IMG/VR virus record: IMGVR_UViG_3300010391_000273
Location: 1 to 64,000 of that record
DNA: 64,000 nucleotides
Strand: one strand, 5' to 3'
Origin: a virus
Shown: one piece after another, positions 1,420 through 49,770 of the stretch
How positions within the stretch are numbered: position 1 is the first letter of the stretch
Layout of the letters: each line of letters opens with the position of its first letter
Position numbers and translations under genes: made by a program
The notes under the pieces: generated by a model
The model's database searches: none
Seen by the model: only the letters and a program-made list of their open reading frames with translations
What the model was told of the DNA's origin: nothing

Positions 1420-2189
1420 TATAAAACTCTAAACTTTGTTGAACCTGTTTGTCCCTTAAGGAGTCTGAACCAACCTAAACAGGATTGACATTGGAACCGT
1501 TGGTAAACCTTAGTGATGGCTCGATGAACACCCCGGCTTTGAATCCTTGTTGATCCACAGCGTGGGCAACCTGAGCCTCCAAATAATTCGCGATTAAGGT
1601 GATTAGGGATAAATGGTCTAAGTTTAAGGAATACGTCTTTTAAAAGGGTTACATCCCGTTTATTATAATCTACCATAGCTTTAATAGCAGACTTTGAACC
1701 CTTAAGTACATCTAACCACAGACCTTTCGGAGTATCCGTCTTACCACCACAACCAAGTATCTTACCAACATAGTCTAATCGATTTGCATTAAATTTAAAG
1801 TTTGCTTTAACTACTTTATACGTATCGATTGAGGCTATAGGTGGAAGAACTGGAAGACCTTTAATAATCATTCGAGTTTTTAGATACCTGAAATCGAATG
1901 CATCCCCATTGTGAGCTATAAGACAATCTGCCTCAGCTAGAACCTTAGCAAACTCCTTTAATACATAAGTATCATCAGAAGGATTCTTTGCAAACCGCTT
2001 AGGATCATCTAGAACTGAGACTGAGTGTACTTTAGATTCTCCTAACCACTGCCAACATATTGATAGAACATACCTCTCGGTAACAAGATTGTCTGGATTG
2101 ATATAATCATTGTACTTAAGATCAAAAATAGCTGCGAGTTGAAGCGATGTCTCTATATCATAAAGTAAAACTCTAGGCTTATTATTCAT
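1419..2189 (-). CDS. DnaQ-like (DEDDy) 3'-5' exonuclease with C-terminal zinc ribbon
   Basis: 256 aa. Motif ExoI is LLYDIETS (D11, E13), ExoII is LIAHNGDAFDFRYL (acidic residues at 97 and 99), and ExoIII is DYNKRDVTLL with Tyr175 and Asp179, the DEDDy arrangement. A zinc ribbon follows (CPRC at 208-211, CQSC at 234-237), probably for nucleic-acid binding. This resembles RNase H-fold ribonuclease/exonucleases of phages. It overlaps the upstream HNH gene by 8 nt and the downstream 52-aa gene by 1 nt. A role in DNA degradation, repair or recombination is inferred. Confidence 0.85.
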   Translation of the reverse strand: MNNKPRVLLYDIETSLQLAAIFDLKYNDYINPDNLVTERYVLSICWQWLGESKVHSVSVLDDPKRFAKNPSDDTYVLKEFAKVLAEADCLIAHNGDAFDFRYLKTRMIIKGLPVLPPIASIDTYKVVKANFKFNANRLDYVGKILGCGGKTDTPKGLWLDVLKGSKSAIKAMVDYNKRDVTLLKDVFLKLRPFIPNHLNRELFGGSGCPRCGSTRIQSRGVHRAITKVYQRFQCQSCLGWFRLLKGQTGSTKFRVL

Positions 2190-2673
2190 TTGTCTCCACT
2201 AAATATTGCCCAATTTTTAAAACGGCTTGTGGTCTTGATTCAAAAAAGCCAATAACTATGTTGCAACCTTGACAAACTATGCCACGAACTTTCCCAGTAG
2301 TATGAGAATGATCTACAGAAGGGTTTTTTATAGGGGAACTATTACATAGTTTACAAGCATTATTTTGTTGGGTAAGGATCTTATTGTAATCTTCAAGAGT
2401 TATTCCATAGTCTCTGCGAAGTTGCCAATCTTTACTTTTATTTGGAAAGCGTTTCCTAAAATCTTTCCAGTACTGAGCAACTTTACTTTTATTTTGTTGG
2501 TATCTAGCTCTACCTTGAGCTAATTGTTTCTCTCTTGTTCTTCCATAACTTTTCTGACTATATCCAGGATGTTTCTTTCTCCACTCAGCTCCATAACAGT
2601 TATGGCATAACCCAAAGGCATAGTGTGGTTTATCTGAATGACAAACAGGCTTACGATTAGAATCTCCATTCAT
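2182..2673 (-). CDS. HNH nuclease of the recombination endonuclease VII family
   Basis: 163 aa. An N-terminal zinc-like segment (CHSDKPHYAFGLCHNC) is followed by a Lys/Arg-rich helical linker. The C-terminal endonuclease VII core has CKLC, then VDHSHTTGKVRG and CQGCN (about residues 106-137), giving the ββα-metal site. Free-standing genes of this family in phages are usually homing endonucleases, although T4 gp49 resolves branched DNA. A promoter of its own lies just upstream, which favours a mobile endonuclease here. Confidence 0.85.
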   Translation of the reverse strand: MNGDSNRKPVCHSDKPHYAFGLCHNCYGAEWRKKHPGYSQKSYGRTREKQLAQGRARYQQNKSKVAQYWKDFRKRFPNKSKDWQLRRDYGITLEDYNKILTQQNNACKLCNSSPIKNPSVDHSHTTGKVRGIVCQGCNIVIGFFESRPQAVLKIGQYLVETNE

Positions 2674-16862: not shown

Positions 16863-17849
16863 CTATGATCGTTCCTCTTCACGAGGATGAATATCTAGAC
16901 GATGAATTTGCCATCCCTCTGGGACCGACACCGTTGCAGGAGTAACATCAACGGAGCCAGAAGCAGCTAAGGCAAAACCATACACGTCCATTCCAACCGT
17001 GGCGATGATCGTTCCTAGATCTAACGTACCCACACCAAACGCACGAATGTGGCCTGACGCACTCGGAAACGTGGGATTAATGTTCGTTGACGTGTTACCC
17101 GTATGCCATGGGCCTCGCCATGCAGACTCGTTGCCTGCTGCTGTAAAAGGACGAGCGACAGCAAACGCTGGGGTAAACCCAAATCCCGAAACAGTAAGAA
17201 TTGATCCCGTGCCGGTTGTTTTATAGGTGCAAAAGAGATTACGGATTGGGTCACCCACAGGAATACTTAAAGCGACATAGTAGTGGGTAAAGCCCACCGT
17301 GTTGACGTTCGAGTCTGAGCTACAGGTAAAGGGTCCACCAAGTGACGTGATGAGATGTGTAAGCACCACAGCCGCGTTGAGCAGCACGACGGCCTGATCT
17401 GCTGTAAAGTCGTCCGAGCGCCATGCTGGCACCCCTTGGGCAAAAATCCACAGCTGGGTTAGGGGCACATAGGGACCGAGTAATCGTGTGAGATCGGCTG
17501 ATCCAACATAGGAACCCACATGCATATAGCGATTGTCACTGGTCGAGTCTCGGAGGACGATGGCTGTATACTTCGCGGCGGAAGTATTGACGAATGAGTT
17601 GGCACTATTTGTAACTGTAAAGCCGCCCGACACAAAGCTCATCACGCCGCCAAGTGTATCTGGGGTGGTTGTCGCATAGATGGTTCCTGGCATGTTGTTG
17701 GATCGAAATGTTGGAAGTTTGGTTATTTGGGGGAACACCCAAATGGCCACCACACCCGATGCCAAAGAGAAGGTGGTAGGAATCAGGCGGGCCGATGTGC
17801 CATCACCAGTCCATGTTACGATTTGTTGTTCCCATTTTCCTGTTGCCAT
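16863..17849 (-). CDS. Tail/fibre protein, 328 aa, unknown family
   Basis: A Gly/Ser/Thr-rich β protein opening MATGKWEQQIVTWTGDGTSA and ending with a conserved-looking C-terminus WQIHRLDIHPREEERS. The next fibre gene upstream ends WQLHRFEINPRVEEQS, so both share a C-terminal tag and may be paralogues or dock to the same partner. Starts in the CATTTATCGAGTCT leader repeat. Confidence 0.7.
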   Translation of the reverse strand: MATGKWEQQIVTWTGDGTSARLIPTTFSLASGVVAIWVFPQITKLPTFRSNNMPGTIYATTTPDTLGGVMSFVSGGFTVTNSANSFVNTSAAKYTAIVLRDSTSDNRYMHVGSYVGSADLTRLLGPYVPLTQLWIFAQGVPAWRSDDFTADQAVVLLNAAVVLTHLITSLGGPFTCSSDSNVNTVGFTHYYVALSIPVGDPIRNLFCTYKTTGTGSILTVSGFGFTPAFAVARPFTAAGNESAWRGPWHTGNTSTNINPTFPSASGHIRAFGVGTLDLGTIIATVGMDVYGFALAASGSVDVTPATVSVPEGWQIHRLDIHPREEERS

Positions 17850-17935
17850 TTATCGAGTCTCCGAAATACAACCCATTTACAATAGTCCTGTGATTAAAAA
17901 TTCCATTTATTGAGTCTCCAAGGTAAATCTCATTA
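17847..17935 (-). repeat. Duplicated gene-leader repeat (CATTTATTGAGTCTCC family)
   Basis: Two copies, 17847-17869 and 17904-17935. On the minus strand the unit reads like a ribosome-binding leader ending in ATG (GGAGACTCRATAAATG). Only the copy at 17847 leads a gene; the one at 17904 is an orphan. Other copies start genes at 12607, 21685 and 29038. Confidence 0.7.
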
Positions 17936-21340: not shown

Positions 21341-21685
21341 TTAAAAGTAGTACACGTCGATATTTTCAGAGCCACTTGCAGTGATCACGAAGGTTCCTGG
21401 TGTGACTGCAACTGAAAAAATAGATGGTTGAGTCTTGGAAAGAGGGACACCTGTATCACCTGAGTCACCTTTGAGGGTCTTGGTAATGACTGAGGTTGTA
21501 GGAGGGACTAGAACTACTACGAGTGTGGCTGCAGGAGGGGTGAACGTGACACTTCCGTTGATTAAGGCTCCTGTAATGTGTTGATATGGAGAGGCTACAT
21601 TAGGAGCGGGTACCACAAGGATGTTTGCCAAGATCCCGTCGCCCGTAATAGTTAAGTTTGCAGAACCTGTAAAAGATTTTGCCAT
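21341..21685 (-). CDS. Small β-rich structural protein, 114 aa
   Basis: Predicted β-sandwich (SANLTITGDGILANILVVPA, VTPGTFVITASGSENIDVYY). Starts in a CATTTATTGAGTCC leader repeat. It could be a decoration or fibre-tip protein; no family recognised. Confidence 0.65.
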   Translation of the reverse strand: MAKSFTGSANLTITGDGILANILVVPAPNVASPYQHITGALINGSVTFTPPAATLVVVLVPPTTSVITKTLKGDSGDTGVPLSKTQPSIFSVAVTPGTFVITASGSENIDVYYF

Positions 21686-21711
21686 TTATTGAGTCCTCGA
21701 AATAAATTTCA

Positions 21712-26199: not shown

Positions 26200-26805
26200 T
26201 TATAGGCTTAACGGAGCCACGCGACCGCTGTCTATTCTATTCTGTGTTCTTATTCGGTGACAATTGGCACAGACTAGCTCGCATTTAGCTATTTCTTCCA
26301 TAATATCTTTTATGGATCTATTTTTGTGCATATTAGCTATTGTATCTTTTTTATCATCACGAACATGGTCAAAGTCCATTACGTATACTGGAAACTGTTG
26401 ACCACAGTCCATACACGGTTTGTTTTTGAAAGAATCGATTATAGACTTCTTTTCAGCTTGTTTTGTTAACTGATAAGATAAACGCTTCTCACGATTATTG
26501 GCTGCATAAATTAGAGCTTTTTCTCGTTGACGATCCACATATTCTGGGTGGGTTGCTCTATATATTCGTTGTCGCTCGGTTTCTTTAGAAGGGTTAGCTA
26601 GTATTCGTTTTCTTGCTGCCACAGCTCTTGCTTGTCTAACTTCAGGTTTAGCTCTACGTCTAGCATCTGCAGCACGCATCAATTCTGGGTGCTTCTTCCG
26701 CCATTCGTAAAGATGTATCCTACGACATGCTTTACATCTTACTTTGTTCTTTCGAGTATAGTCTTTTTCTGGTTTATCTTCATTACAGTATTTACAAATC
26801 GACAT
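26200..26805 (-). CDS. HNH homing-type endonuclease, 201 aa
   Basis: N-terminal CKYCNEDKPEKDY...CKAC zinc motif, a basic helical linker, then the HNH core: CMDCGQQF, VMDFDHVRDDKKDTIANMHK and CELVCANCHRIRT (about residues 137-188). It is inserted between the major capsid and decoration genes and has its own promoter, the typical position of a free-standing homing endonuclease. It probably cuts an allele of a neighbouring gene. Confidence 0.85.
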   Translation of the reverse strand: MSICKYCNEDKPEKDYTRKNKVRCKACRRIHLYEWRKKHPELMRAADARRRAKPEVRQARAVAARKRILANPSKETERQRIYRATHPEYVDRQREKALIYAANNREKRLSYQLTKQAEKKSIIDSFKNKPCMDCGQQFPVYVMDFDHVRDDKKDTIANMHKNRSIKDIMEEIAKCELVCANCHRIRTQNRIDSGRVAPLSL

Positions 26806-26924: not shown

Positions 26925-27800
26925 TTATGCCGACTCACAAACGGCCAATCTGCTGCGGTTGTTAACTAGAGCTTGCAAAGCGGAGTATATTTTGAAGACA
27001 AATGCATTCTGACTGGGGATTTCGACAGTGTTGCCCTTGTCTCGGAAGTACTGCTTGGAAACTACGATGTTGTAGTTCTTTGGATTCAGGAAGTAGACAG
27101 GTGTTCCACCATATTGTGAGAATACGTATCTGGCTGTCTTGAACGCTAGGACCTTAAAGCCTGCGTTGGCTTCGTCGGTGTCTGTGAAGCGTTGAAGGGT
27201 CTGAAGTCCTGACTCATAGAGGACGTGTGGTGTCACTCCTGAAATCATGAACTTTGGTTGAAGACTGGCTCCTGAACCTTTAGCTGCCTTATTGAAGGCG
27301 GTTGTGAAGGTTGCTTCGATGTCAGATCCGTCTGCAGCGTATGTATCCGCGTAGTTCTTCCACCATGTTTCGACTGAGCTGTCAATGCCACCGACTGTAC
27401 CCGTACCTGCAGTGGAAACTAGGTCGTTGAGGCCGTTGAGTTCGTCGCCACCGGCTGTCGAAGTGACGAAGATGGACTGCTCGATTAGGTCATCGTGCGA
27501 GTTGATGCCATTTTCGAGAAGTTGCTTGACGAGGGCAATCTTCTGATTTTCCTCTGGGTTCTTAGCATCATCGCCCTTAGTCCATACGACGGGGACTGAG
27601 ATCTGGGCGACGTTGTAAGAGGCAGAGGTGCCAATTTCTGTCTTGACTAGCGAAGCTTCGTCCTGGTCAGAGGCTAGGACCGCTGCATCAGGATTTGCAC
27701 GGTAGTCGAGGGGAGCTTCGATTGTTGGTCCGAGTGCGATATGTTGGATAACGCCTTGACGTTCCATCTCACGAAGGGCTGCGTTTTCAGCCCACTGATT
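26925..27800 (-). CDS. Major capsid protein, exon 2 (main part)
   Basis: The continuous ATG-initiated frame is 280 aa (from 27767), but the frame is open upstream and continues with NQWAENAALRE before that Met, without a start codon. Motifs such as LGPTIEAPLDYRANPDAAVL, WTKGDDAKNPEENQKIALVK, LLENGINSHDDLIEQSIF and GTVGGIDSSVETWWKN match a major capsid protein family of tailed phages. The beginning of the gene lies beyond a group I intron (exon 1 at 28069-28155), so the spliced product is about 320 aa. It forms the phage head; expression depends on splicing. Confidence 0.85.
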   Translation of the reverse strand, partial: NQWAENAALREMERQGVIQHIALGPTIEAPLDYRANPDAAVLASDQDEASLVKTEIGTSASYNVAQISVPVVWTKGDDAKNPEENQKIALVKQLLENGINSHDDLIEQSIFVTSTAGGDELNGLNDLVSTAGTGTVGGIDSSVETWWKNYADTYAADGSDIEATFTTAFNKAAKGSGASLQPKFMISGVTPHVLYESGLQTLQRFTDTDEANAGFKVLAFKTARYVFSQYGGTPVYFLNPKNYNIVVSKQYFRDKGNTVEIPSQNAFVFKIYSALQALVNNRSRLAVCESA

Positions 27801-28068
27801 CTTTATTGTTACAAACGATTTTAATCGTTAGGGTTAGTCGTTTCTGTTCCGCCAACCTCCCTAGGTTTAAGTTTCACTAGGGAACAGACTATTGCATTCT
27901 CCATTAGGAGATCCCTTCGTTTAGTCGTTCACGCTGGATTTTTAATCCTTGCGCCTCGTAACCATTTCAGGCGTCCGAGTCGATTAGAGGGGATTTTCTA
28001 AAAAGTCATTACAACTTTTTAGGGCCATGTATGATACCTAGCAGTCTAATCCAGTGGTTGGATCGTTA
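27801..28068 (-). ncRNA. Small group I intron interrupting the major capsid gene
   Basis: About 268 nt with stop codons, lying between two capsid coding segments. Core elements on the minus strand: a P5-like CGCCT/AGGCG, a P6-like GGATT/AATCC, P7 GACTA/TAGTC, a P8 hairpin TCTCC-TAAT-GGAGA between the P7 strands, and a P9 hairpin CCCTAG/CTAGGG. The order P7-(P8)-P7-P9 is diagnostic. Exon 1 ends in U, and the proposed last intron base is G, as group I splicing requires. Exact ends are uncertain by roughly 15 nt; the internal guide pairing was not resolved. No ORF inside. Confidence 0.8.
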
Positions 28069-28155
28069 AGCCGCCTTACGCATTTCCGCAAGGACTGCTG
28101 GGTAGCTCACCTTTTTAAGTTGGGAAGCCGCGATTTGTTCTATAGAAAGGCTCAT
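28069..28155 (-). CDS. Major capsid protein, exon 1 (29 codons)
   Basis: ATG at 28155 with GGAG nine bases before it. It encodes MSLSIEQIAASQLKKVSYPA then VLAEMRKAA and meets TAA immediately, at the proposed intron start. Joined to NQWAENAALRE of exon 2 this gives a normal capsid N-terminus. Unspliced mRNA would make only this 29-aa peptide. Confidence 0.75.
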
Positions 28156-28169
28156 AATTTAAATCTCCA

Positions 28170-28403
28170 TTAGTGAATAGTTATTGTTTCAATTGTACTA
28201 TCTGCACTTACGGAGGCAGGGACCGATTTACGAGATACCACATTGGTATTACGAGATAGCAGATATTGTTTGGCTGCTTCCAACAGGTCTATGGAGTCGC
28301 CTAACATGCCAATACCTGTATAACATGTTAAGCAGAGTAGGCCACGAACTACTCCAGAAACGTGGCAATGATCAACGTGACTCACTTTTTGTCCACTCCC
28401 CAA
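28170..28403 (-). pseudogene. Truncated endonuclease VII-type HNH next to the intron-containing capsid gene
   Basis: 77 codons from a TTG. Only the second half of the endonuclease VII core is present: VDHCHVSGVVRGLLCLTC followed by the usual LLEAAKQYL helix. The first CxxC zinc half, normally 20-30 residues before VDH, is missing; that DNA now belongs to the end of the upstream membrane-protein gene. It ends 14 bases before the capsid start. Probably a remnant of a homing endonuclease that served the capsid intron; a split protein is an alternative. Confidence 0.7.
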
Positions 28404-29038
28404 TAATAGGAAAGGGCTTGTTGAGCGAACACTTTTTGAAGACTTTTATATACTTTGAAACCAAAATATGTGAGGCCTGCGACGAGGATGACTACGACTC
28501 CTAAACCTATCATGAAGAGGTTAGACCAATTCACAACGGTGCCAAATTTCTCGGCTGTGGTGACTGTCGTCATGAGTTGTCGGGCGATGGCGCCAAGGAT
28601 GATTAGAGCGACTGGGCCTGCAACACCGAAAATGGCTACGTTTTGACGGGTGATGTGTGTTTCAGCCCGATCAAGACGACCATTCTGGGTGATCATGTGG
28701 GCTTCGACGGCTTTAACGGTGGTGTTTATAGAATTTAGTACGATGTCTTGGCCTTTAGTATGGGTTTGAATAAGATCACGAACCATTGATACCGTGGTAC
28801 TCGATTCCATTTGCTGAGCGGTTCGAATTTCTCGAATGTCATCTTGGAGACGTGGGAATTCACTTAAGGCTTTACTTGCTGTATCGGATACTATCTTCGC
28901 TGATTGAGCAGCGGCAGTGTTTAGGGTTTTTACGGCATCGGCAGCAGCAGTAGTGATTGTCGTTGTAGCTATTGCAGAAGCAGCTGCAATTATAGACGCC
29001 GCGTCTTTTTGTCTAGTAGAAGATCTTTCTAAAGCCAT
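28382..29038 (-). CDS. Coiled-coil membrane protein, 218 aa
   Basis: The N-terminal ~110 residues are Ala/Thr-rich helices (DAASIIAAASAIATTTITTA, PRLQDDIREIRTAQQMESST). Two membrane segments follow at about residues 134-155 (VAIFGVAGPVALIILGAI) and 172-195 (LFMIGLGVVVILVAGLTYFG). Such proteins in phage late regions can be holin or spanin-like, or envelope-disturbing. No family assigned. Starts in the CATTTATTGAGTCTTC leader. Confidence 0.65.
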   Translation of the reverse strand: MALERSSTRQKDAASIIAAASAIATTTITTAAADAVKTLNTAAAQSAKIVSDTASKALSEFPRLQDDIREIRTAQQMESSTTVSMVRDLIQTHTKGQDIVLNSINTTVKAVEAHMITQNGRLDRAETHITRQNVAIFGVAGPVALIILGAIARQLMTTVTTAEKFGTVVNWSNLFMIGLGVVVILVAGLTYFGFKVYKSLQKVFAQQALSYYWGVDKK

Positions 29039-29113
29039 TTATTGAGTCTTCGAAATTTTTTAACTCTCACGATCAATCACTATTTATTGAGTCTTCGAAA
29101 TAAATTCTATCAT
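29036..29113 (-). repeat. Duplicated gene-leader repeat (CATTTATTGAGTCTTCGAAAT)
   Basis: Copy 1 at 29036-29058 contains the start of the 218-aa gene. Copy 2 at 29082-29113 leads no gene and lies between two genes. Within a copy, ATTTATT and AAATAAAT pair. The same doubled arrangement occurs at 17.85-17.94 kb. Confidence 0.7.
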
Positions 29114-31150: not shown

Positions 31151-31630
31151 ATGAGAAAAAAGTATTACAAGACAGAAAATCGGAAAGCGTTTTTTGCAGA
31201 GATGGTTGAAAAATTTGGTGATCAATGTATGATTTGTCATCAACATATTCGACACCTTCTTATAGACCATGATCATCAGACAGGTATCATGCGTGGACTT
31301 CTTTGTGTTCAACATAATTTTGGTCTTGGTAATTTTCAAGATAGTCCAGAACTATTAAGAAAAGCTGCTAATTATTTAGAAACGATGAATATTGCCGAGC
31401 TGACCAACGGTGCAAAGAATAATGAGATGTCAGGACCAGTTAGAAAACCTTATCTAACAAATCAAGATATTGATGACATTCTTTTAGATAAACACTACAA
31501 ATCAGATCGCCAACGTGCTAAAGAGCTAACAGTTAGATATAATATTAGTTTTAGTGCTGCCCAATCTAGAGTCTCAAGACGGGGAATGAGGCAATGCACT
31601 GCATCCTATGTAATTGCATCACCCCTTTAG
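31151..31630 (+). CDS. Endonuclease VII-type HNH nuclease on the opposite strand
   Basis: 159 aa. Core CMICHQHIRHLLIDHDHQTG then IMRGLLCVQHNFGLGNF (about residues 26-63), followed by the family LLRKAANYLE helix. The fourth Cys position is replaced (CVQH), which may weaken zinc binding. The C-terminal half (YLTNQDIDDILLDKHYKSDR, NISFSAAQSRVSRRGM) looks like a helix-turn-helix DNA-binding module, as in many homing enzymes. A strand-reversed gene with its own promoter in the late operon marks a mobile insertion. Confidence 0.85.
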   Translation: MRKKYYKTENRKAFFAEMVEKFGDQCMICHQHIRHLLIDHDHQTGIMRGLLCVQHNFGLGNFQDSPELLRKAANYLETMNIAELTNGAKNNEMSGPVRKPYLTNQDIDDILLDKHYKSDRQRAKELTVRYNISFSAAQSRVSRRGMRQCTASYVIASPL

Positions 31631-35482: not shown

Positions 35483-38053
35483 TTAATTGACCCTCGTTCG
35501 TACATTGTTGGATCCTAGGACATAACGCTCTTGGGTTTTTGGCTTCATCCAAGGTTTTGGACCCGAAAATTCAGTACTTGAACGTCTTTCGTCTGAAGCA
35601 TGGGACATGACATAGTAAGCAAGAGCTACAACCGCATGGTCGTCTTTGTGGTCTGCCATAAATTCTGGTCGCTTTTGATCATAGCGCATTTGGGGAAGGG
35701 TCCTAACTAGATAGGGACATCCCTGGTGGCCGTAAGCAAAGAACTGGATTCGTGGGAGGTTTTCTCCAGCTTCTTCGGCTAGGACATTATGGATAGCTGA
35801 TGCAAAGACATCCCGTTTGTTAATGGAGCATTCCATAGGGATACCATTAATCTCATAAATCTCTTTAATGGTACGGATATCAGCTGTTGTGTTGATGTCC
35901 ATGGAAGGATCACAATAAGTGATAGCTACTTTGAAAACTCCAAGGCGGATGTCTTCGTCTTTGATATCTTCTGCAACTTGGGTGGCGGTGGTCTTGTACC
36001 AAATCTTCTCGTTGAAGACGATGTGCCTGTTTCCCAGGTGGGCTATCCATAGAACTACAGTAGGATCAGGGAACCAACCTGAATCGATAGCTCGATAGAC
36101 AGTGGCATATTTAAGTATTTTGGGTAGGTCGAGTTCAGGAGTAACATGGTAGGGCTTTCCTTCTAAAGTAGGTTTAAAGTCGAATAGAGCGTTTTCCATC
36201 GAGAATTCACCATCTACCCAAGCCTTTCTGACATGGGCTGGGAGGCCGGAGAATCTCTTTTTATACTCTATGGGGAGATAAGGGTTGTCTTCCAGGTTGG
36301 CTTTAATGGCGTACCAATCAGCTGGATTGTAGTCACGATCTTCCTCTGGGTCAACAGTTTTGTCTATAAAGTATTCTTGAATCTTCTGAGCTGACATTCC
36401 CATAGGATTTGTTAGGGCTCTAACGAGGGCACCACAATTCATGTTAACAGGGGCTCGGACTGAAGAGGCCAGTTTTCTAAAGTGTTCCCATTCAAAGGTT
36501 GAGACCTCATCAAACAGGGCCAGATAGAACTCACCTCCGAGAAGGTTTAGTACGTCTTCTTCCGTATTACAGTGGGAGAAGAAACCTGCTGAACCATTAG
36601 AATAGGTTAAAATATGTTTAGTTTGATTGTAGGAGGCCCCTAGAAGTTTAGCCTCCCTAGGGATGGCATAAAGGTGGGTATTATGAGTTGGGATAGACGT
36701 GTATCCAATAAGGTATTGATGTGAAGGATGTTCTACTGCAATACACTTACAAATAGTGTCCTCGACTTGTTCACACCCTATGATATAATGATTGCTTGTC
36801 GTTAATCTAGTAATTCTAGTTGATTTATAAGTCTCTAGATTTTTTAGTTTTCTAGGAAGTCTAAAAAGAGGTAAAGAACTTGTCCATTCAACTTTATAGG
36901 CTAATTGACAAACTGACCCATTTAACTTTGGTTGGTATTCTGTAATATTTGGTTTAAATCCAAGAGAAGACACTAATATAAGAACTTGATAAGCAAGGTT
37001 TTTATTCGAATTATAGAAACCAATTAATCCATCTTTTCTTCCATGTCCATCTGTATCTAAAAGTCCTTGTAATAGAGCAAGCCTATTGTCATAACTACTT
37101 ATAAGATAAGCTGCTGGAATATGCTTTTTATTTAAAAGCCCTTGAAGACGAAGTTGTTTTTGTAACCTTAGAATACCATAACCATATTGATTTGATGGTT
37201 GTTTTCTAACTGTGTAACCAAGTTCCACAACGTGTTCAAATATCTCTGGGTCATTTGACGTGATTGCTCCACAGTCTGAAGAACCGTCACCAAGCCATAC
37301 CCCTAGTACATAAGGATTTATAGGAAGGGGTTGATTATTCTGTGTTTGCCATGGTTTTGCAATAGGAATAGAGTGATTGGCTCGTAAACCATCTTCAACT
37401 TTTAATGTATTAAAAATCTCTTGAGTAGTTCGTATTTTTGGTGATGAGTTAATATAGGTTCTGGATTGGGCACCAGACTGTATTCTCTGTTGGCCCGACC
37501 TTTCTCGATGATTTGAGGTGACCCACAAATGACCAGCACTTACAATAAAACTTTCTTTGTTGTCAAACGTTATTTTGTAGGTTCCTTGTACATCAACTTT
37601 AGGAACCGACATACCAATAATTGTCGTGGGAGATCCATCTGGAGCAAAAACTTGATCGCCAATTTCTAAGGTACCCATGGTTTTCATACCATTTGGTGTA
37701 GGAATTAGGGTGTCCAAACTACAGGCTTTTTCAAGCTCGGGGAAAGTCCTTCTTAGAATGACATACTTATAATCTGGAATAGAGAGAGCCCTAATATGAG
37801 CATCCCACCTACCAGTTGTGGACTTGGCAGAACCTCGACCACCATAGAAAAGGACGTTTTCTTCGGTACGTTGGTGATATTCTACACCTTTTTCGGTGGG
37901 AACATAAAGAACCTCATTACCAACGATAACACTACCAACATTACACCATTCACAATTAATAGATGGAGGAATAAACTTATGCCTACCATCTGGAGAAGGC
38001 TTACAAATTTTAACTAGGGGGATTGTAGTAGGATAATATAGCTCGTTAGACAA
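35483..38053 (-). CDS. terL: Large terminase subunit with an intein
   Basis: 856 aa precursor. The extein has an ATPase with Walker A GGRGSAKST (71-79), the RRTFPELEK segment (101-109), Walker B LALFDE (511-516), and nuclease acidic sites near RAIDSGWFPDP, YCDPSMDI and HKDDHAVVALAYY. Residues 111-458 are an intein inserted right after EKA. Removal leaves about 508 aa, normal for TerL. The enzyme pumps DNA into the prohead and cuts it. It overlaps the small upstream gene by 8 bases. Active enzyme requires protein splicing. Confidence 0.92.
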   Translation of the reverse strand: MSNELYYPTTIPLVKICKPSPDGRHKFIPPSINCEWCNVGSVIVGNEVLYVPTEKGVEYHQRTEENVLFYGGRGSAKSTTGRWDAHIRALSIPDYKYVILRRTFPELEKACSLDTLIPTPNGMKTMGTLEIGDQVFAPDGSPTTIIGMSVPKVDVQGTYKITFDNKESFIVSAGHLWVTSNHRERSGQQRIQSGAQSRTYINSSPKIRTTQEIFNTLKVEDGLRANHSIPIAKPWQTQNNQPLPINPYVLGVWLGDGSSDCGAITSNDPEIFEHVVELGYTVRKQPSNQYGYGILRLQKQLRLQGLLNKKHIPAAYLISSYDNRLALLQGLLDTDGHGRKDGLIGFYNSNKNLAYQVLILVSSLGFKPNITEYQPKLNGSVCQLAYKVEWTSSLPLFRLPRKLKNLETYKSTRITRLTTSNHYIIGCEQVEDTICKCIAVEHPSHQYLIGYTSIPTHNTHLYAIPREAKLLGASYNQTKHILTYSNGSAGFFSHCNTEEDVLNLLGGEFYLALFDEVSTFEWEHFRKLASSVRAPVNMNCGALVRALTNPMGMSAQKIQEYFIDKTVDPEEDRDYNPADWYAIKANLEDNPYLPIEYKKRFSGLPAHVRKAWVDGEFSMENALFDFKPTLEGKPYHVTPELDLPKILKYATVYRAIDSGWFPDPTVVLWIAHLGNRHIVFNEKIWYKTTATQVAEDIKDEDIRLGVFKVAITYCDPSMDINTTADIRTIKEIYEINGIPMECSINKRDVFASAIHNVLAEEAGENLPRIQFFAYGHQGCPYLVRTLPQMRYDQKRPEFMADHKDDHAVVALAYYVMSHASDERRSSTEFSGPKPWMKPKTQERYVLGSNNVRTRVN
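36680..37723 (-). mobile_element. LAGLIDADG intein within the large terminase
   Basis: 348 residues. The first residue is Cys (CSLDTLIPTPNGMKTMGTLE), and block B is present (SAGHLWVTS). The homing endonuclease has two dodecapeptide motifs, LGVWLGDGS and LLQGLLDTDGH (residues 250-258 and 327-337). The C-terminal splice motif is HQYLIGYTSIPTHN followed by Thr (+1). All residues needed for splicing are visible: Cys1, the block B His, terminal Asn and Thr+1, though the penultimate residue is His as usual. The insertion lies in the ATPase domain just past the Walker A region. Confidence 0.92.
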
Positions 38054-49503: not shown

Positions 49504-49770
49504 GATTAAACTGTTGAAGATCAACAAACCGCCATTCGGACGGGGCTGCAATGCCCCCGACTCCACCATAACAAATTTAATGAGTATGGGGTCGACTTAG
49601 TTTCGACGGGTAGCTTAGTAGTTGATTGGAGGTTTAGTCGTAAGACCCACGAAACGGGTCAACCGATAGTCAACGACTATCAAATGGCAGCGTAAGCTGC
49701 AATCGACTTATAAGGTCTAATCACCTTTAGGTCCGGGTTTTGTGGGTTGTCCTCGGAACAGAATCAACCC
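49504..49770 (+). ncRNA. ssrA: Circularly permuted tmRNA (acceptor piece 49504-49568, coding piece from 49588)
   Basis: The acceptor piece ends TTCGGACGGGG...CGACTCC-ACCA (to 49568), closely like the standard tmRNA 3' end. The coding piece begins GGGGTCG (49588-49594), which pairs with CGACTCC, then has the hallmark TTCGACGGG (49602-49610). Helix 2 pairs GTTGATT (49621-49627) with GATCAAC (49519-49525), and GGTTTAG (49631-49637) with TTAAACT (49506-49512). GATAGTC precedes the tag frame NDYQMAA-stop (49672-49695). It has a GGCAGC-GTAA-GCTGC hairpin and pseudoknot-like stems to about 49770. It rescues stalled ribosomes and tags peptides for proteolysis. The T loop is 6 nt. Confidence 0.82.

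Follow-up and report, generated by a model that had tools for sequence, protein, structure and literature searches.

Introduction

The systems closest to the locus described here are the psbA/F-CphI pair of cyanophage S-PM2, the major capsid gene of mycobacteriophage LittleE and the large terminase gene (terL) of phage ICP1; phage capsid introns, introns with an adjacent endonuclease gene and collaborative homing are thus already known. In the first of these systems, F-CphI has been reported to cut intronless psbA and to carry the intron along (PMC6083498). How collaborative loci arise has been described as unclear (PMC10448857).

The present locus lies in a window of 64,000 nucleotides, positions 1 to 64,000 of the IMG/VR virus record IMGVR_UViG_3300010391_000273, and we found no open-access paper on its capsid family, its intron family or the series formed by the window and the related loci L010 and L072. 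On balance we favour, as rather probable, a reading in which the major capsid gene of this phage is split by a group I intron and a DHHRN endonuclease, once the collaborative homing partner of that intron, was subsequently half deleted.

Results

The capsid gene lies in two pieces on the (-) strand. The larger piece, exon 2 (26925-27800), has 291 codons and a stop and matches the major head proteins of PHROG 9953 (E 4e-27); its frame begins at 27800 with no start codon, and the first ATG within it is at 27767. Exon 1 (28069-28155; 29 codons, 87 nt, MSLSIEQIAASQLKKVSYPAVLAEMRKAA) encodes a homologous N-terminus, joined without a break to the exon 2 portion in 58 of 62 relatives, and it runs directly into an in-frame stop, so that unspliced RNA terminates at codon 30. 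Between the exons lie exactly 268 nt (28068-27801). The spliced protein would read ...MRKAA/NQWAENAALRE... (the slash marks the junction here and below), the two pieces joining at a codon boundary, and in the protein alignment the motif VSYPAVLAEMRKAA followed by NQWAENAALRE is unbroken in 58 of the 62 related IMG/VR loci. The four exceptions are L072, L009 (= L075) and L021 (= L101), which carry introns at other positions, and L126, a partial match elsewhere. These relatives were drawn from IMG/VR, 27 and then 62 loci, all of them metagenome contigs and some of them copies or near-copies of one contig; no prophage relative was found among the genome contigs searched. The coordinates and the continuous reading of the relatives agree with the first-pass annotation, which had noticed a capsid frame lacking its N-terminus and a 29-codon exon 268 nt upstream. 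As the relatives read through this point and unspliced RNA stops so early, we strongly infer that capsid synthesis would depend on RNA splicing. A capsid protein starting only at the internal Met 27767, the outcome named beforehand as contrary to splicing, is not what the comparison suggests: the N-terminal 24-29 residues are conserved across the relatives, Met 27767 falls within the conserved stretch REMERQG (with REL or RVL in relatives), and in none of them does it serve as a start codon.

Exon 1 also contains, at 28111-28125 (-), a 15-nt in-frame insertion, TCCCAACTTAAAAAG, which adds SQLKK and was seen in no relative. With U in front of it, G as its last base and an L021 intron position 2 nt away, it could be the scar of a lost intron. 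The hexanucleotide GCGGCU at the end of exon 1 also precedes this insertion, and is there a possible cryptic 5' splice site.

The identity of the 268-nt insert (27801-28068, (-)) was examined with a dedicated covariance model, R1, built from 16 other viral introns with the window excluded and comprising helices P3, P4, P5, P6, P6a and P8. R1 scores the insert at 101.4 bits (E 8.7e-21) and matches nothing else in the 64 kb or in the remainder of the 98.6-kb record; this bears out the earlier reading of a P7/P8/P9 group I core. Because the DNA patterns by which the training introns had been gathered were written from the J3/4-P7 sequence of the window, the score is not fully independent as far as it rests on sequence; the pairing in P3, P6 and P8 is independent. 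In the alignment that includes the window, 97.5% of pair cells are standard, as against 38-42% when the partners are slid by 1-3 columns, and 19 of 31 pairs have changed on both sides, values reached by 0 of 500 shuffles. P3, P6, P8 and one P7 pair covary, the outer P7 pair being G-C in 13 sequences and A-U in four, among them the window; the conserved core P3, P4, P6, P7 and P8 therefore stands in its fixed order with its pairing kept by covariation. The splice sites, fixed by the protein alignment, are GGCGGCU/UAACG and AAUAAAG/AAUCAG, that is, U before the 5' site and G as the last base of the intron.

Rfam's group I model RF00028 gives no match to the insert at the gathering threshold, at E 1 or at E 10. 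Among six sister loci used as a control, it finds only the first L021 capsid intron (46 bits, E 1.5e-8) and misses L044, L054, L064, L009 and L072. RF00028 is thus blind to most of this intron family, and a library match is not a biological criterion: the covariance check proposed by the first-pass annotation fails with the library model and succeeds with the dedicated one. Outside the family, R1 matches strongly in a sequenced Nitratidesulfovibrio phage (78.5 bits) and weakly inside the tail-gene intron of phage Baka (19.5 bits, E 0.025), whose splicing was shown by RT-PCR (PMC3706429); it does not find the verified IA2 intron of Pf-WMP3, nor that of LittleE. The model, the covariation and the exact in-frame junction together strongly support the assignment of the insert to an ORF-less group I intron, which would presumably be self-splicing and spliced in vivo.

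The catalytic core, P3-P8 with P7 (27883-27997), comprises P3 (27987-27993/27912-27918), P4 (27976-27979/27955-27958), P6a (27936-27948), P7 (27922-27926/27887-27891) and P8 (27898-27911), and is followed by hairpins P9, P9.1 and P9.2 up to the 3' end of the intron (27801-27882), a three-hairpin fold common to the window, L009 and L072. P2 can also form. Complementarity judged by eye places a putative internal guide at 28040-28051, in which GAUU can form P10 with AAUC of exon 2 and GACUGCU would form an imperfect P1 with GGCGGCU of exon 1, requiring a C/A mismatch or a bulge beside the splice site. P3 contains a single mismatch, and in J5/4 the window has U at a position where A is otherwise invariant; these departures in P1, P3 and J5/4 are small. 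The gap of about 4 nt between P7 5' and P3 3' leaves no space for the P7.1/P7.2 elements that mark subgroup IA2 (PMC3428280).

Upstream of exon 1, an ORF at 28403-28170 (-) with a possible GTG start at 28385 encodes what had been annotated as the remnant of an HNH homing endonuclease. That it is broken and ends (28170) 14 nt from the ATG of exon 1 holds; its type is endonuclease VII (DHHRN). Only the C-terminal half is present (28170-28385), matching positions 37-81 of the 82 of PF02945 (E 2.6e-12), with homology to the L010 gene starting at 28379. In the alignment DH.H, R and the second Cys pair are retained in the remnant, which lacks the first pair (CxxC) and has Y in place of the final N of DHHRN, in agreement with the loss of the zinc half proposed earlier, whereas L010, L072 and L002 keep D, H, H, R, N and both Cys pairs. 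The C-terminal tail is in frame and aligns to the end of the L010 protein; of the N-terminal half, nothing is left in the neighbourhood. T4 Endo VII and F-CphI require the corresponding residues for activity, and in F-CphI single changes abolish binding or cutting (PMC6083498); this degraded DHHRN relative should therefore be inactive.

The best match of the remnant is the intact L010 gene, with 88% DNA identity over 95 bp and an abrupt end at about 28379, adjacent to the preceding gene's stop codon; between the window and L010, the capsid genes share only 63% identity. A tree of 60 proteins of this kind joins the remnant to L010 as its sister (SH-aLRT 97). The protein borne by the L072 intron is nearest L010 by path and score, without strong branch support, and the L002 and L021 endonucleases belong to other lineages. 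Two further endonuclease VII-type genes of the window, 31151-31630 (+) and 2182-2673 (-), have both metal-binding halves; one of them is found upstream of the scaffold gene, on the other strand. An apparently intact HNH endonuclease gene (26200-26805, (-); PHROG 3106 HNH, E 5e-27) lies just downstream of the capsid gene, and its product could be the present homing partner.

The related phages display other arrangements of the same elements. L010 has an intronless capsid gene and, in the same slot and at the same 13-14 nt spacing, the intact sister endonuclease. L072 (IMG/VR 3300033067_001508) has a 673-nt capsid intron at NNWA/ENAA, 12 bp downstream of the site in the window, with an intact endonuclease VII gene in its P6 region; among the 78 collected loci, the best match of that endonuclease is the L010 gene. 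L009 carries a 242-nt ORF-less intron after codon 5 and an HNH gene in the slot. L021 has a 193-nt ORF-less intron in the AAV codon and a second one of about 0.9 kb after ...VTW(T) with a LAGLIDADG-like gene (labelled by eye, ends uncertain); both introns lie in one capsid gene (L021 2631-3999) with an endonuclease VII gene directly upstream. In L009 and L021 the capsid introns thus adjoin intact endonuclease genes, an arrangement akin to that of the window, and the total is five introns at five sites in the capsid gene of four phages.

The slot between the scaffold and capsid genes has repeatedly received different endonucleases: it holds HNH (L009) and T5orf172 (L012, L019, L121) types as well, mostly without an intron. 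A slot endonuclease gene and a capsid intron co-occur (3 of 4 versus 7 of 49; Fisher p 0.018 without kinship correction), an association that is not significant once kinship is considered, the independent pairs on the tree being too few for a kinship test. In one scan of the endonuclease VII relatives elsewhere (78 loci, L010 included), no R1-type intron was found nearby. Just downstream of the intron site, L067 and L072 show raised identity to the window (0.84 and 0.78 versus about 0.6), a rise too small for a claim of co-conversion around the junction.

Other features of the window include a phage permuted (two-piece) tmRNA of alphaproteobacterial type at 49507-49695 (+) (RF04321, 69 bits; RF01849, 55 bits), for which aquatic phages, Melnitz among them, offer precedents (PMC9004378), and a large terminase ORF of 856 aa at 35483-38053 (-) with an apparent intein bearing a LAGLIDADG_3 domain. 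The motif TTTCGARGACTCAATAAAT occurs in four (-) copies (17848-17866, 21684-21702, 29037-29055 and 29082-29100; chance 0.02), three of which run directly into the ATG of an ORF (17849, 21685 and 29038); it is a putative leader or promoter-like element.

Discussion

In the history we propose, a free-standing DHHRN endonuclease would most likely have cut the intronless capsid gene near the intron site of the window, and repair would have copied endonuclease and intron together, as in collaborative homing. A later recombination would have deleted the first half of the endonuclease, leaving an intron that would still be spliced and would probably no longer be mobile by the DHHRN enzyme. We infer both the cleavage specificity and the order of events, in which the decay of the enzyme comes afterwards. 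The anatomy is that of a collaborative pair, an ORF-less intron adjoining a free-standing endonuclease gene, here with the stop codon of the remnant 14 nt from exon 1; former collaborative homing is plausible because this anatomy resembles psbA/F-CphI, because in L010 the same lineage neighbours a capsid gene with no intron and because a relative lies inside the L072 intron. The sister relation of the remnant to L010, with the same spacing and 88% DNA identity despite the divergence of the capsid genes, and the co-occurrence of slot endonuclease and capsid intron also speak for it. Against it count the loss of significance of that co-occurrence once kinship is taken into account, the lack of an R1-type intron near endonuclease VII genes elsewhere, the 12 bp between the sites of the window and L072, and the intact downstream HNH gene as a rival partner; the small departures in P1, P3 and J5/4 weigh against the reading as well.

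The rival partner belongs to a different account, which we regard as possible and rather doubtful: the intron would be real, the endonuclease VII gene would never have been its partner, and the remnant would be a passenger in a slot that attracts endonucleases. The intron would then have arrived by reverse splicing, through an endonuclease once inside it, or with the downstream HNH gene. That the slot holds unrelated endonuclease types in other phages, mostly without an intron, and that an intact HNH gene directly follows the capsid gene of the window speak for such a history; so does the endonuclease turnover proposed for loci of this kind (PMC10448857), which a dead upstream gene and an intact downstream one would also fit. 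Against it stands the relative of the same lineage inside the L072 capsid intron, which among the 78 loci matches the L010 gene best, and we retain collaborative homing as the preferred reading. It is improbable that the remnant, instead of decaying, still encodes a functional protein such as a fragment that binds DNA: its in-frame tail aligned to the L010 end and its possible GTG start would be expected of one, whereas it lacks the first Cys pair and has Y for N, and the matching single changes in F-CphI abolish binding or cutting. An unspliced insert, be it a pseudogene, an assembly error or a capsid gene starting at Met 27767, is scarcely credible; the silence of RF00028 even at E 1 would suit it, and is countered by the failure of that model at five of six sister loci, by the E value of 8.7e-21 with the dedicated model, by the exact in-frame junction with U before and G at the end of the insert, and by the conservation of the N-terminal 24-29 residues in the relatives.

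More generally, we tentatively propose, as a possibility still short of an even chance, that the N-terminal 120 bp of the capsid gene serve as an arena of repeated homing, where a single endonuclease VII lineage may have been caught in each state: free-standing by an empty site (L010), inside an intron (L072) and, in the window, decayed next to an intron left stranded. If the enzymes of L010 and L072 were to cut either at the two intron sites or between them, these loci would form a natural series leading from free-standing endonucleases to mobile introns. The locus makes the order from free-standing endonuclease to collaboration with an intron, entry into the intron and decay directly testable. 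Furthermore, capsid protein is made in very large amounts, and the tolerance of five introns in its gene in four phages therefore implies efficient splicing. Since most of the family escapes RF00028, the capsid genes of such phages will be annotated as truncated.

In conclusion, the locus resembles several described systems without coinciding with any of them. Like psbA/F-CphI, it has an essential gene interrupted by an ORF-less group I intron and, adjoining it, a gene of endonuclease VII/DHHRN type; F-CphI, however, is intact and was shown to cut the intronless allele (PMC6083498), whereas here the endonuclease gene is half deleted, the host gene is that of the capsid and cutting is putative. 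As in LittleE, a group I intron revealed by intronless relatives splits a phage major capsid gene; the LittleE intron carries its own endonuclease gene, its splicing was shown by RT-PCR and N-terminal sequencing (PMC3706429), its capsid is unrelated to that of the window, and its intron escapes R1. With ICP1 the window shares an intron and a free-standing endonuclease gene beside a short N-terminal exon, but there the gene is terL, the endonuclease is of the T5orf172 type and splicing was shown by RNA-seq (PMC10448857). Nearest of all is L072, with the same capsid gene, a related group I intron, the same P9-P9.1-P9.2 end and the same endonuclease family, from which the window differs in that the L072 endonuclease is intact and inside an intron inserted 12 bp downstream. 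What is new is a capsid-intron case with an unusually complete comparative series of homing states in one essential gene.
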